Made by a program: the position numbers and the translations under genes. Positions 41,662-48,129 of a DNA stretch of 49,573 nucleotides are shown one piece after another. The stretch comes from an uncultured Pseudomonadota bacterium (GTDB taxonomy: Bacteria > Myxococcota_A > UBA796 > GCA-2862545), in the NCBI GenBank assembly GCA_903861005.1, contig CAIOSP010000125.1:1-49573 (forward strand). The letters run 5' to 3'. Each line of letters opens with the position of its first letter. Within the stretch, counting starts at the first letter, position 1. The notes beneath the pieces were generated by a model. That model ran no database searches. It was not told where the DNA came from and saw only the letters and a list, made by a program, of their open reading frames with translations.

Positions 41662-42492
41662 ATGTCGTCCCTCGCCGGAAAGACCCTCTTTGTGACCGGA
41701 GGCAGCCGCGGGATCGGCCTCGCCATCGCCCTGCGCGCCGCCCGTGACGGCGCCAACGTGGTGATCGCCGCCAAGACCAGCGACCCCAACCCCAAGCTGC
41801 CCGGCACCATCCACTCGGCCGCGGCGGAGATCGAGGCCGCGGGCGGCAAGGCGCTCGCCATCCAGACCGACATCCGCTTTGAGGAGCAGGTGCAGGCCGC
41901 CGTCGACGCCGCCGTCGCGCGCTTTGGCGGGATCGACATCCTGATCAACAACGCCAGCGCCATCTCGCTGACGCCCACGCTCATGACCGACATGAAGCGC
42001 TACGACCTCATGCACGGCATCAACACCCGCGGCACGTTCCTGACGTCCAAGGTGTGCATCCCGCAGCTCCTCAAGGCGTCCAACCCGCACGTGCTCAACC
42101 TGGCGCCGCCCTTCCCGCTGCAGGCCCGCTGGTTCGCGCCGCACGTCGCCTACACCATGGCCAAGTACGGCATGTCGCTGTGCGTGCTGGGCATGGCCGA
42201 GGAGTTCAAGGAGCAGGGCATCGCGTTCAACGCGCTGTGGCCTCGCACCACCATCGCCACCGCCGCGGTCCACAACCTGCTCGGCGGCGACGCGCTGATG
42301 CGCACCTCGCGCACGCCCGAGATCATGGCCGACGCCGCGCACTCGATCCTGACGAAGCCGTCGCGCAGCTGCACCGGCAACTTCTTCATCGACGAGGACA
42401 TGCTGCGCGCTGAGGGCGTGACGGACTTCGAGCGCTACCGCGCGGACCCGGCCTACACGGGCGAGCTCACGGAAGACTTCTTCCTGCCGTAG
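41662..42492 (+). CDS. HSDL2-like short-chain dehydrogenase
   Basis: This is 276 residues from ATG at 41662 with TGGAG upstream. The cofactor motif TGGSRGIG (12-19) and INNASA (95-100) mark a Rossmann-fold SDR. Further motifs TSDPNPKLPGTIHSAAAEI, HVAYTMAKYGMSLCVLGMAEE, and NALWPRTTIATAAV are characteristic of the HSDL2 (hydroxysteroid dehydrogenase-like 2) branch. The catalytic Tyr164 and Lys168 (YTMAK) are present. In the LNLAPP segment (145-150), where I recall HSDL2 relatives having serine, there is Ala148, so the triad may be incomplete. The substrate is unknown, perhaps acyl or steroid-like lipids. No SCP2 domain is attached. Confidence 0.9.
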   Translation: MSSLAGKTLFVTGGSRGIGLAIALRAARDGANVVIAAKTSDPNPKLPGTIHSAAAEIEAAGGKALAIQTDIRFEEQVQAAVDAAVARFGGIDILINNASAISLTPTLMTDMKRYDLMHGINTRGTFLTSKVCIPQLLKASNPHVLNLAPPFPLQARWFAPHVAYTMAKYGMSLCVLGMAEEFKEQGIAFNALWPRTTIATAAVHNLLGGDALMRTSRTPEIMADAAHSILTKPSRSCTGNFFIDEDMLRAEGVTDFERYRADPAYTGELTEDFFLP

Positions 42493-42588: not shown

Positions 42589-44610
42589 CTACCAGGTCGG
42601 GAACGGCCGCCCCGCGGTGGCCGCGCCGCCCGTCCAGCCCGCGCCCTTCACCAGCTCGTCGGCCCACGCGTCGACCGAGCCCGCTGCGTGGACGCGCAGC
42701 GCACCCGCCGCCAAGCGACGCAGCTTGGGCTCGTCGCCGCACAGGCGATGCAGGGTCTCGGCGATCGACGACATGGCCTCGCCGCGCGCAGGCGCCAGGC
42801 CCGTCACCTCGTGGCGAACCAGGTCCTCCACGCCCATCGCGCGGTTCGTCACCACCGGTCGACCACACGACTGCGCGAACGCGACCCACGCCAGGTCGCG
42901 CGCGTGCGCGGCGGTGGCGTCCTTGCCCACGCGACGCGCCGGGAAGAGCACCGCGCGCGACGTGAGGATCGCGTCGGCGATCGTCGCGTCGTCCAGATCG
43001 CGATGCACGCGCCAACGCGGCGAATCCGGCACCTCCACACCCGCCGACACGATCACGTGCATCGGCGGCAGCCCCTCGCGGCCCGCCAGCTCGCGCGCCA
43101 GCTGCGCCCAGTCCGCGGTGTCGCCCAGCGCGACCACCGGCCCCTGCGTGCTGTACGGCGCGTCGCGCAGCGCCGGCCCGACCGGGTACGGCTTCCACGT
43201 CACGCGACCGAGCGCGACGCCTGCGGCGACGTAGGCGTCGACGCGACCGGGCGCGTGCGCGCGAACCTCCACGCCGTCGAGCGCCGCCAGGCCCTGACCC
43301 AGACCCAGGTCGAGCGCGATCACGCGCTGTCCCGCCGCGCGATCTGCGCGCGCCACGACCTGCGCCGCGGCCGCCGCGTCTCCCGCGATCACCAGCGCCG
43401 CGCTCGCCACGCGCGCGTCGTCCGCCGTGACCACCGCCGCGTCCACGCCACGCGCGCCCAGCGCCGCCGCCAGCGCGGGCAGCGTGCGCGCCGCGTCCAC
43501 GCTCGACGCACCCGCCACGATCGCCACAGAGCCCGCCAGCGGCGCCCAGCCGGGCCGCGGCGCCAACACACCCACGCCCAGCTTCGACAGCTTCTTGGGC
43601 AGGCCCGCGCAGGCCGCGCGCGCCGGGCATGCCTCGCAGTCCGGCCCCCACGTGGCGTCCGCAGCCCACGCGTCGACGGTGCGCGTCAAGCCGCCCACAC
43701 ACGGCGGCGCGTCCAGCAGCGGCGCGCCGCGCGCGGCCAGCTCCAGGCCCGCCGCGGCCAGACCGCCCGCCGACTCACAGAGCGCGGAGAAGTCCTTGCC
43801 CATGCTCTCGTCGTCGAGGATGGTGAAGCCGCGCTGCGCGTGCTCCAGCCACACGCGCCGACGCAGCAGGCGCAGCGCCGACGTGTCGGCCTGCGACGGC
43901 CCACGCTGCGGCTCGAGCGTCATGTCGACCGTGTCGTCAAAGCCGACCAGGTCGTACGCGATCACCTCCTCCTTGGCGTAGAACCACAGGCCCGACGCCA
44001 AGCGCAGCGACGTGGCGAGCGGCAGCTCCAGGCTCGCGTAGAGCGGGCGATCCACCGCCAGCTTGCCGAGCGGCTCCACCGCGCGCAGCTGGAAGCCCTT
44101 GATGCCCGCCATGGTGCCCATGTGCATCAGGTGCTCGATCTCGCCCTCGTTCGCCTTGTTGAGCACCGTGTACATCCACGCCTTCACCGGCGTGCGCGTC
44201 AGGAAGCGCAGGCCCGCGAGGCCCTCGACCCAGGCGTTGGTCTTGGCGGCGAGCGCGTCGTGCGTGCTGCGGCGGCCGGAGTGCACCGACACGTGCACCT
44301 CGTCCAAGCCCGCGGACACCAGCATCTGCGCGACCTTCTCGGACTGCACGATGCGCGCGTTCGTCGTCATGGAGACATACAGGCCCTTGGCCTTGGCGTA
44401 GCGGATCGCGCCCAGCAGGTGCTTGGCCTGCGTGGGCTCGCCGCCCGACAAGAGCACGGACGTGGCACCCGCGGCGACGGCAGCGTCGATGTCGGCCTGG
44501 ATGGTCTCCAGCGGCACGACCGCGCCGTCGAGCGCCGGGCCGTCCGAGCAGAACACACACGCGTTCTGGCAGGCCCGAGAGACGCGGATCCAGGCGGGTT
44601 CGGTGCTCAC
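42589..44610 (-). CDS. Radical-SAM protein fused to a GT-B-like domain
   Basis: This is 673 residues from GTG at 44610, which overlaps the ceramidase-like stop (GTGA). The radical-SAM domain (about 1-230) has CX3CX2C ligands Cys14, Cys18 and Cys21 (SRACQNACVFCSDG), the SAM-binding GGEP (56-59) and MTTNARIV. A second cysteine set, Cys304, Cys325, Cys328 and Cys334 (CVGG and CEACPARAAC), may hold an auxiliary cluster. Residues about 360-655 look like two Rossmann halves; the last contains PVVALGDTADW, AVLFPARR and GRPVVTNRAMGVEDLVRHEVTGL, the C-terminal pattern of GT-B glycosyltransferases (GT4-like). The usual first acidic residue of the donor-site EX7E motif is not obvious. Substrate unknown. 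Confidence 0.8.
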   Translation of the reverse strand: MSTEPAWIRVSRACQNACVFCSDGPALDGAVVPLETIQADIDAAVAAGATSVLLSGGEPTQAKHLLGAIRYAKAKGLYVSMTTNARIVQSEKVAQMLVSAGLDEVHVSVHSGRRSTHDALAAKTNAWVEGLAGLRFLTRTPVKAWMYTVLNKANEGEIEHLMHMGTMAGIKGFQLRAVEPLGKLAVDRPLYASLELPLATSLRLASGLWFYAKEEVIAYDLVGFDDTVDMTLEPQRGPSQADTSALRLLRRRVWLEHAQRGFTILDDESMGKDFSALCESAGGLAAAGLELAARGAPLLDAPPCVGGLTRTVDAWAADATWGPDCEACPARAACAGLPKKLSKLGVGVLAPRPGWAPLAGSVAIVAGASSVDAARTLPALAAALGARGVDAAVVTADDARVASAALVIAGDAAAAAQVVARADRAAGQRVIALDLGLGQGLAALDGVEVRAHAPGRVDAYVAAGVALGRVTWKPYPVGPALRDAPYSTQGPVVALGDTADWAQLARELAGREGLPPMHVIVSAGVEVPDSPRWRVHRDLDDATIADAILTSRAVLFPARRVGKDATAAHARDLAWVAFAQSCGRPVVTNRAMGVEDLVRHEVTGLAPARGEAMSSIAETLHRLCGDEPKLRRLAAGALRVHAAGSVDAWADELVKGAGWTGGAATAGRPFPTW

Positions 44611-46532
44611 TTCGAGGCCTCCCAGCGCGCGTTCAGACGCGCCCAGGTCGCCTGATAGACCGTGCCAAAGTCCCAGGCGACCGTCACGGTGTCCTCGTAG
44701 TGATCGCCGTCGCGCGAGCTCAGCAGCGACACCTGATGGTTCACGCTCGACTCCGGCAGGATGTACGACAGGTAGGTCGACGTCATCGACATCGCCGCCT
44801 TGTACTTGGTGTCCACCGACGCGAGCGTGGGCTGCGTGCTTGGGTCGAGCGAGAGGGTGTAGGGCCACGCGTGCAGCGTGAGGCAGTCGCAGTCGCCCAC
44901 CATGAACGGGTCACCCACGTCACGGCACTGGTCGAACGTGACGTTGTCGCAGTCGTGGTCGTGCTGCGGGAAGTAGCGGGATCCGGGGCCGCGCTGGGTC
45001 GGGTCGGCCGCCTCCGCCACCCACTTGGGGTCGTCGGTCGGCAGGCCCCAGGCCAGCTCAGGCAGCAGCTCGCCGGGCGCGGTCGCAAACGTCACGTCGC
45101 CCAGCTGCATGCGGTAGACGCGGATCGGCAGGCAGCCGAGCTCGGTCTGGAGCGCGCCGGGGCACAGAGACTCGTCGCGCGTGCCCTGGTCCAGGCCCAT
45201 GTCGAAGATGCCCTGCGGGCCGAGCAGGTTGTAGGCGACGTTGCGCACGGGCACCCAGCCCGGCTCGACCATCACCTTGAGCGGCGCGCCCGACATGTCC
45301 TCGCCCGCGTCCAGCGCGTCGGCGGCGGCGTTGGCGATCGCGTAGCCGTGGCTGCGCACGAAGTCCCAGGAGTCCTCCTCCGCCCACACCGGCACCACCA
45401 TCCCGTCCGCAGAGCCCCCGACGTAGGTCTTGGCGTCGCCCTCGGCCTTGCCCGCGCAGCCCTCGACGTCCGCCGAGATGTCCTCCGCGGAGCAAGTCTC
45501 GACTACCGGCGCGCCGTTGTCGTCCACGAGCGGGATGTCGCCGCCGAGCGCGGACTGCATGCCGCCCAGGCACTCCGGGAAGTGGATCGCCGTGCCGCCA
45601 AAGCGCGACTCCAGCACCTGCCGCTCCACGCCCACCCAGTCCGCGGAGATGCCGTTGTTGTCGCCGCCGCGCACCTCCGGGTGGCCCGACCAGTTGGTGA
45701 GCGTGAACACCACGCCCGCGTCGTCCTTGGCCTGGATGGCGAGCAGCTGGTTGGACGCGATCACCGGATCGCGGATGTCGTGGATCATGCCGTGCATCGT
45801 GTCGGTCGGGTTCACGCCGCCGAACACCGACCCGTTGTAATACGGGCTCACGTCCTCCATCTTCACCGCGCCGACGCGCAGCGTGACGGGCCTGGCCGCC
45901 GCGGCCGCCTCGCGCACCGCCTGCGCGATCGCGTTCGCCACGCGGTCCTGGTAGGCCGGGTCAAAGCCCGACAGCCCGTTGAGCGGGTCGCCCCACAGGC
46001 CCATGGTGTCGGGGCCCTGGTGGTTGTGCGTGCTGGCGACGATCAGGCGGTCCGGGTCAAAGCCGTCGACCTCGTGCAGCATGGCCGCGGCCGCGTTGAT
46101 GCGCGGGTGCGCCAGGCCGACAAAGTCGAGCGCGACCATCGCGACGTACTCGCCGCCGTCCTCGATCACGACGGCGCGCGCGGTGATCGGATCGTGGATG
46201 TCCTGCGCGGGGCGGCCGGGGCCGTAGCCTCCGATGAACACCGCGTCGAAGTGGCCGTCGCCGTCCGCGTCGTCAAAGCCCTCGGTGCAGACCGCGGTGA
46301 TCATCGGGCTGTCGTAGCAGCCGTTGAACTCGGCGTTGCCGTTCACGTCGGTGAAGGTCTCGGTGATCACCGGCGTCAGGTCGACCACCGCGATGCCCGC
46401 GACCGTCTGGCCGGCGGCCGTGCGCGGCAGGCCGAGCGGCAGCGCCTCGGGGCTGTCGGTGTCGCCGTCCGGCGTCCCCGAGCTGCAAGCGACGAGCGCG
46501 ACCACGGTGGTCAGGAGGAGTTGCGAGCGCAT
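44607..46532 (-). CDS. Neutral-ceramidase-like lipoprotein
   Basis: This is 641 residues from ATG at 46532 with GAGG upstream. The signal MRSQLLLTTVVALVAC gives Cys16, followed by a short Asp/Thr linker (DGDTDSPE). Neutral ceramidases cleave the amide bond of ceramide; this relative has the zinc-ligand motif VASTHNHQGPDTMG, RAVVIEDGGEYVAMVALDFVG, FTLTNWSGHPEVRG, and a late domain with LGDVTFATAPGELLPEL. It contains an Asp-rich insert (FDDADGDGHFDAVF) that may bind calcium. Predicted to be anchored outside the cytoplasm. It is divergent from a lipase-maturation-factor-like gene and overlaps the radical-SAM fusion gene. Confidence 0.85.
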   Translation of the reverse strand: MRSQLLLTTVVALVACSSGTPDGDTDSPEALPLGLPRTAAGQTVAGIAVVDLTPVITETFTDVNGNAEFNGCYDSPMITAVCTEGFDDADGDGHFDAVFIGGYGPGRPAQDIHDPITARAVVIEDGGEYVAMVALDFVGLAHPRINAAAAMLHEVDGFDPDRLIVASTHNHQGPDTMGLWGDPLNGLSGFDPAYQDRVANAIAQAVREAAAAARPVTLRVGAVKMEDVSPYYNGSVFGGVNPTDTMHGMIHDIRDPVIASNQLLAIQAKDDAGVVFTLTNWSGHPEVRGGDNNGISADWVGVERQVLESRFGGTAIHFPECLGGMQSALGGDIPLVDDNGAPVVETCSAEDISADVEGCAGKAEGDAKTYVGGSADGMVVPVWAEEDSWDFVRSHGYAIANAAADALDAGEDMSGAPLKVMVEPGWVPVRNVAYNLLGPQGIFDMGLDQGTRDESLCPGALQTELGCLPIRVYRMQLGDVTFATAPGELLPELAWGLPTDDPKWVAEAADPTQRGPGSRYFPQHDHDCDNVTFDQCRDVGDPFMVGDCDCLTLHAWPYTLSLDPSTQPTLASVDTKYKAAMSMTSTYLSYILPESSVNHQVSLLSSRDGDHYEDTVTVAWDFGTVYQATWARLNARWEASK

Positions 46533-46599: not shown

Positions 46600-48129
46600 A
46601 TGGCGACGCCCCGCAAGAAGGCAGGAACCAAGACTCGTCCTGCCGCCCCCGCTCCGAGCGGATCGACCGCCGAGGGCGTACGGCGCCTCTACCTGGCCGC
46701 GCTCGGGCTGACGGCGGCCGTCGCGTTCGCGTCGCTGGCGGTGCAGATCGACGGGCTGATCGGCGTGCACGGCATCCTGCCGGTGCAGCACACCCTGCAC
46801 GCCGAGGCCGCCGCGCGCGGCTGGACCGGCGTGCAGAAGTGGCTCCACCTGCCCACGCTCATGTGGATCCTGCCGTGGTCGTGGGGGCCCGCGCTGCTCT
46901 GCGCCGTGGGCTTCTTCGCGTCGCTCGCGGTGGCCACGGGCCGCTACGCCGCGCCTGCGCTGCTGGTCGCCTACCTGTCCTACCTGTCGCTGTGCACGGT
47001 CGGCTCCCCGTTCCTGGACTTTCAGTGGGACGCGCTGCTGTGCGAGGTGCTGGTCGCGTCCGTCCTGGTGGCGCCATGGGGCGCCAATCCGCGGCACCCC
47101 GCGCCCGCCGCTGGCTGGTGGCTGCTGCGCTGGATCCTGTTTCGACTGGTGTTCTTTGGCGGCCTAGTCAAGCTGACCAGCGGCGATGCGACCTGGCGGG
47201 ACCTCTCCGCCCTCGGCTTTCACTTCTGGACCCAGCCGCTGCCCAACCCGGTCAGCCTGTGGGCCGCGACGCTGCCCGCGTGGGTGGGCATGATCGGCGT
47301 GGCGCTCACGTTCGTCGTCGAGTTGGTCCTGGTGTTCGGCGTGTTCGCTGGGCGCATCGGTCGCCGCGTGGCGTTTGGGTCGATCGCCCTGCTGATGGCG
47401 GGGCTGGCCGCCACCGGCAACTACGGCTTCTTCCAGCTGCTCACCGTGGTGCTGGCGCTGTCGATGCTCGACGACGCCGACCTGGCGCGCGTCCGCCTGC
47501 GCGTCCCGGCCCCGCCCACCGCCGCGATGACCCAGCCCAAGGTGGTGGCCGCCTGGGCGCTGGCCGCCCTGCCGATGGCCGCGAGCCTGGCGTGGATCCC
47601 CGCGTGGTACGGCCCGCGCAGCGTCCACTCGCCCGCGCCCGTGCTCGACGCGCTGCGCCGCGAGGCGCCCTTTCAAGTGGTGAACCGCTACGGCCTGTTC
47701 GCCACCATGACCACGTCGCGCCCGCTGCCCATGCTGGAGGCCAAGTGGGGCGACGGCGACTGGGTGGAGCTGACCTGGCGCTGGCAGACGAGCGACCTGG
47801 GCGCCCGCCCGGCCCAGGCCGCGCCCCACATGCCGCGCCTGGACTGGCAGCTGTGGTTCGCGGGCCTGTCCACCTGCGACGACAACCCCTGGCTGGTGCG
47901 CCTGGAGGACGCCGTGCTGCGCGGCGACAAGCCCGTCGATGCATTGATCGGCGACATGCGCTTGCTGACCGGCGCGCCGCCCGACGCGGTCCGTCTGACC
48001 CTGGTCGACGTTCGTCCTGCATCCAACGCCGATCCCTCGCGAGCGCGCTGGACGCGCACCGTCGTCGGGGCCTACTGCCCCGCGCGGACACGCGCCGAAG
48101 TCGTTGACGCGGCAGCCGAGACAAGGTAA
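46600..48129 (+). CDS. Lipase maturation factor (LMF) family membrane protein
   Basis: This is 509 residues from ATG at 46600. A Lys/Arg/Pro-rich N-terminus precedes about eight membrane segments (about 25-365). Family patterns are GVHGILPVQHTLH, PFLDFQWDALLCEVLV, GFHFWTQPLPNPVSLWAATLP and, after the membrane part, VVNRYGLFATMTTSRP, PHMPRLDWQLWFAGLSTCDDNPW. In animals LMF1 helps lipases fold in the ER; bacterial members are uncharacterised. Its gene is divergent from a ceramidase-like enzyme, so it may help exported lipid hydrolases. The last bases overlap a candidate promoter for tRNA-Asn. Confidence 0.88.
   Translation: MATPRKKAGTKTRPAAPAPSGSTAEGVRRLYLAALGLTAAVAFASLAVQIDGLIGVHGILPVQHTLHAEAAARGWTGVQKWLHLPTLMWILPWSWGPALLCAVGFFASLAVATGRYAAPALLVAYLSYLSLCTVGSPFLDFQWDALLCEVLVASVLVAPWGANPRHPAPAAGWWLLRWILFRLVFFGGLVKLTSGDATWRDLSALGFHFWTQPLPNPVSLWAATLPAWVGMIGVALTFVVELVLVFGVFAGRIGRRVAFGSIALLMAGLAATGNYGFFQLLTVVLALSMLDDADLARVRLRVPAPPTAAMTQPKVVAAWALAALPMAASLAWIPAWYGPRSVHSPAPVLDALRREAPFQVVNRYGLFATMTTSRPLPMLEAKWGDGDWVELTWRWQTSDLGARPAQAAPHMPRLDWQLWFAGLSTCDDNPWLVRLEDAVLRGDKPVDALIGDMRLLTGAPPDAVRLTLVDVRPASNADPSRARWTRTVVGAYCPARTRAEVVDAAAETR

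Follow-up and report, generated by a model that had tools for sequence, protein, structure and literature searches.

What a radical-SAM enzyme fused to a glycosyltransferase-like domain does, and whether it works with the ceramidase-like lipoprotein whose gene it overlaps, is the question raised by one locus in the 49,573 nt of contig CAIOSP010000125.1 (the whole stretch of DNA analysed here, hereafter the window). The initial annotation had suggested that both proteins belong to a pathway modifying a lipid, peptide or glycan at the envelope. The features concerned are the following.

44607..46532 (−): neutral-ceramidase-like lipoprotein gene, 641 aa, lipobox LVAC, PF04734
44618..44623 (−): GGGAGG, Shine-Dalgarno-like, 7 nt ahead of the fusion-gene GTG
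42589..44610 (−): radical-SAM/GT-B fusion gene, 673 aa, GTG start
44122..44586 (−): radical SAM core, PF04055, residues 9-163, Z of about 21 to NifB, viperin and SkfB
44548..44571 (−): CX3CX2C (C14, C18, C21), predicted ligands of a SAM-binding [4Fe-4S] cluster
44434..44445 (−): GGEP motif, residues 56-59
43609..43701 (−): C304-X20-C325-X2-C328-X5-C334, possible auxiliary cluster motif (PPCxGGLxR...CxxCx5CxGxP)
42637..43536 (−): GT-B domain, residues 359-658, GT4-like with a degenerate donor site, from structural alignment and family profile matches
42796..42864 (−): GRPVVTNRAMGVEDLVRHEVTGL segment, residues 583-605; the EX7E positions upstream carry no glutamate
41662..42492 (+): convergent SDR gene, conserved beside the radical-SAM gene in two related genomes (G006 and G002)

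We are highly confident in this anatomy of radical-SAM core, four-cysteine set and GT-B domain, since Cys14/18/21, GGEP at 56-59, Cys304/325/328/334 and GRPVVTNRAMGVEDLVRHEVTGL are all located in the 673-residue ORF as first described. The protein carries CX3CX2C, scores over the PF04055 Radical_SAM cut-off (E 1.3e-16; 61.7 bits, cut-off 29.5) and shows a partial TIM-barrel fold, as expected for the radical SAM superfamily. CX3CX2C and GGEP are kept in one paralogue of the same genome (C46a), and CX3CX2C is also conserved in the G006 orthologue. The second four-cysteine set is found in the window protein (P0001) and in the G006 orthologue; its CX2CX5C spacing is one that we take to resemble SPASM motifs, in a region modelled at low confidence. 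GC3 runs at 0.88-0.99 in each 75-codon block along the whole length of the gene, so both halves are coding. The GTG start shares GTGA (4 bp) with the TGA stop of the ceramidase-like gene, confirming the overlap noticed initially, and this overlap together with GGGAGG 7 nt ahead makes both the GTG start and co-translation of the two genes likely. A generic scan of the fusion-gene region returned no promoter or terminator.

An AlphaFold2 model of the window protein, built with 14 family rows, reached a mean pLDDT of 79.5 and a pTM of 0.79, with pLDDT below 50 at residues 310-336, where three of the four second-set cysteines lie. In VIA-align 2 comparisons of this predicted model, the N-terminal part matches NifB (Z 21.0), viperin (20.6) and SkfB (20.4), and residues 359-658 match the GT-B structure of BshA (2jjm, Z 19.2 over 284 residues), so that the GT-B fold suggested for residues 360-673 by the initial annotation holds up in the prediction. 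The likeness to GT4 enzymes (BshA, MshA, PglA) lies in this fold over residues 359-658, with Z of 18-19 to BshA and PglA. Unlike them, the fusion family has no EX7E glutamates and the window protein stays under the Pfam cut-offs, with 20.4 bits for PF13692 Glyco_trans_1_4 (cut-off 27) and 17.6 bits for PF00534 (cut-off 26.4). Glycosyltransferase Pfam cut-offs are passed by paralogues C204, C112, C91 and C43 and by a G006 family member (G006_C129). SenB (8fbx) also shares the GT-B fold (Z 19.0 over 274 residues, 18% identity), but it is a stand-alone UDP-sugar enzyme of selenoneine synthesis, a Se-glycosyltransferase with key residues N20, T23, K158 and E231 (PMC10891094).

On the radical-SAM side, the best PDB sequence match is BlsE (E 5.6e-13, residues 7-179), which also comes out on top in Foldseek, where DesII is matched as well; the RiPP maturases SkfB and SuiB, and viperin, have fold scores as good as that of BlsE. 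BlsE is a radical SAM cytosylglucuronic acid decarboxylase (PMC3715490) and DesII acts on a TDP-sugar (PMC11434129). BlsE has the radical-SAM core in common with the window protein but is a single-domain enzyme, 28% identical over the core only, and its NCBIfam profile gives the window protein 59.6 bits, far below the cut-off of 400.

The observation that the glycosyltransferase-like part lacks an acidic donor-site residue is borne out, and the loss is wider than had been described. In alignments to MshA and 6kih, GT4 enzymes that the GT-B domain family matches by profile, both EX7E glutamates are absent across the whole family; the roles of the two glutamates in a GT4 enzyme are described in PMC13104830. 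NCBIfam matches of the family to EpsE and MshA are all far under cut-off. The window protein has also lost the arginine of the family's R-D-W step. Loss of EX7E alone is no proof of inactivity, because paralogues with better glycosyltransferase scores share it.

The window protein is one of a family. Its own genome holds seven genes with the same GT-B domain, six of them fusions (the window gene included) and one stand-alone: C204 (738 aa), C112 (659), C46a (661), C46b (611) and C91 (590) are the other fusions, and the stand-alone copy, C43 (392 aa), shares 1 bp with a GT2 gene. Domain order is the same in the fusion paralogues of this genome and in G006, a genome from the same family and another genus, which has an orthologue of C204 with an ankyrin-repeat gene adjoining it in both genomes. 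G001 (same genus) has an orthologue of C46b that is truncated at the edge of its contig, and G012 encodes a protein of 1081 aa in which the GT-B domain occurs twice in more distant form (L089:6047-9289 (−)), adjoining RmlA-, RmlB- and RmlC-like and carbamoyltransferase genes.

Outside this genome, relatives of the GT-B family turned up in just three genomes, all from the same taxonomic family. Among 379 genomes sampled from the phylum, many of them incomplete, only two others match at E 1e-20, with shorter and weaker alignments. The radical-SAM half matches three genes at E 1e-183 to 1e-142, followed by a steep fall. In the GTDB contig collection the window protein by itself matched no relative, and the C204/G006 pair matched the G006 contig and no other; plasmid records gave only generic radical-SAM matches, one annotated blsE. 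In a radical-SAM tree with long branches, support for placing the family on one side is weak (53/44). A literature search that was far from complete found no description of a radical-SAM/glycosyltransferase fusion. At locus L055:6513-8489 (+), C112 has no CX3CX2C yet carries a cysteine set (276, 291, 294, 298) resembling the second one of the window protein. A 70-aa Pro/Gly-rich ORF without a Pfam match (L057:6723-6935 (+)) overlaps the start of C91. Six radical-SAM profile matches lie within about 10 kb at G000:C93:25707-36202 (−).

It looks, from the motifs and profile scores, as if most fusion members keep only one half in working order. CX3CX2C and GGEP are present in the window protein and C46a, with PF13692 scores of 20.4 and 15.9 bits (cut-off 27), and absent from C204 (41.5), G006_C129 (39.4), C112 (56.9), C46b (26.0) and C91 (30.3). 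Likewise, the window protein and C46a have lost the R-D-W/G step of the GT-B domain, which the other fusions retain. Across the seven fusions the rank correlation between radical-SAM and glycosyltransferase scores is not significant (rho −0.41, permutation p 0.19), and we therefore present the contrast as categorical only. In the GT-B tree the window protein clusters with C46a (94/90, with a long-branch warning), so their shared state may go back to a single event. Cysteine-free N-termini still resemble the fold: C204 scores 36.7 bits as Radical_SAM, and Foldseek with a model of C46b returns SkfB (E 4e-5) and BlsE (2.3e-4), presumably through its cysteine-free N-terminus, although the alignment behind that model held live rows, a possible bias. 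The GT-B part of the C46b model reaches Z 25. C46a and C46b form a live/dead pair, encoded on the same strand, the stop of one gene lying 1 bp from the start of the next. This spacing suggests that a once bifunctional fusion was duplicated and divided its duties, with live-SAM/dead-GT and dead-SAM/live-GT members acting as heteromeric pairs, a reading that we hold to be quite improbable.

The upstream lipoprotein matches PF04734 Ceramidase_alk at 33.3 bits, marginally over the cut-off of 32.1. Like neutral ceramidases (2zws, 4wgk) it aligns through the HxH...GP region, its HxHxGPD falling on that of 2zws; unlike them it reaches 18.6 bits on NF041649, the NCBIfam equivalog profile for neutral ceramidase, whose cut-off is 1200. 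Among its orthologues GHPE, GGMQS, PGELLPE and Y590 show full or near-full conservation, and together with HxHxGPD these may correspond to the known zinc ligands and catalytic serine. Divergent from this gene lies a lipase maturation factor homologue (46600-48129 (+); PF06762 E 3.5e-45, PF25179 E 4e-22).

Conservation of the neighbourhood speaks to the proposed pathway, in which the fusion protein and the lipoprotein would together modify an envelope lipid or sphingolipid. That the lipoprotein belongs to the neutral ceramidase fold family fits this idea, and the 4-bp overlap, together with a good ribosome-binding site, makes co-translation very probable in the window genome. Against it, a ceramidase-like protein is matched in 42 of 58 relatives, and gene calls from a simple codon-usage script around nine of the best of these loci (40-58% identical over the alignment; about 1.5 kb each side, less at contig ends) show no radical-SAM neighbour. 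Conversely, in G006 and G002 (the latter 97% complete), where the radical-SAM gene is syntenic, no ceramidase-like protein is matched at E 1e-10, and no other fusion-family member adjoins a ceramidase-like gene. The expected co-occurrence of radical-SAM homologues with a ceramidase-like gene is thus not seen at these loci, and the lipid pathway drawn from the pairing becomes very unlikely; the syntenic neighbour is the SDR gene, other SDR loci examined having no such radical-SAM gene. The ceramidase-like gene, although co-translated with the fusion here, has probably come to lie beside it recently and incidentally. That the window gene belongs to a small, lineage-restricted radical-SAM/GT-B fusion family whose ceramidase pairing is not conserved is a conclusion we consider well founded.

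The same two orthologues bear on the role of the GT-B domain, which both do without: the G006 protein (370 aa) ends past the cysteine motif and the G002 protein (296 aa) ends earlier, with no clear GT-B remnant in the gap of 0.5 kb that follows the G002 gene when translated by eye in three frames. The fusion paralogues suggest that GT-B was lost in G006 and G002; alternatively, it may have been gained in the window gene. Given that G006 and G002 lack it, the radical-SAM function does not depend on the GT-B domain. One could go further and see in the window protein an ordinary radical-SAM enzyme like these orthologues, trailing a functionless GT-B leftover in decay, as the early stops in the orthologues, the loss of EX7E and of the R-D-W arginine and the score under the Pfam cut-off would have it. 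The frame is nevertheless open across 320 codons at a GC3 of about 0.9 and the predicted GT-B fold is complete and mostly of high confidence, and we regard a mere leftover as somewhat unlikely.

Our preferred reading, to which we give a probability of roughly 0.4, is a radical-SAM enzyme acting on a substrate held by a degenerate GT-B domain. It would comprise an N-terminal radical-SAM part, probably catalytically live judging from its sequence, with a possible auxiliary iron-sulphur cluster, and a GT4-derived C-terminal GT-B part without canonical donor-site residues. The vestigial GT-B part would hold either a glycosylated acceptor or a sugar nucleotide, and the N-terminal part would generate the 5'-deoxyadenosyl radical that takes hydrogen from the held sugar or aglycone; the outcome could be oxidation, epimerisation, dehydration or decarboxylation, as with BlsE or DesII. 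The transferases would be those paralogues whose radical-SAM half is dead and whose GT-B half is in better shape. We lean towards sugars because of the BlsE and DesII matches and the glycan-type neighbours of two family members, and the sugar-directed mechanism itself is put forward tentatively: the BlsE likeness is confined to the core, the family members sit at scattered loci with no common biosynthetic cluster, and nothing within the window indicates a substrate, donor or product, all of which count against it.

The substrate of the window protein could instead be a peptide or something else. Among the top fold matches are the SPASM/twitch-like SkfB and SuiB, the CX2CX5C spacing presumably resembles SPASM motifs, and a 70-aa Pro/Gly-rich ORF overlaps C91; these points are consistent with a RiPP-maturase-like enzyme that modifies a peptide or protein, its GT-B domain being a glycosyltransferase relic or a peptide-glycan binding module. 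Yet no precursor-like small gene adjoins the window gene in the gene calls and the Pfam scan finds no PqqD-like recognition domain, so we consider this unlikely. For the preferred enzyme with a substrate-holding GT-B domain, the wider interest lies in its relatives: a fusion family whose paralogues keep either half would offer a natural experiment on substrate sharing between a radical enzyme and a sugar transferase, and its cysteine-free pseudo-radical-SAM domains, still resembling the fold, would form a set testable as binding modules.
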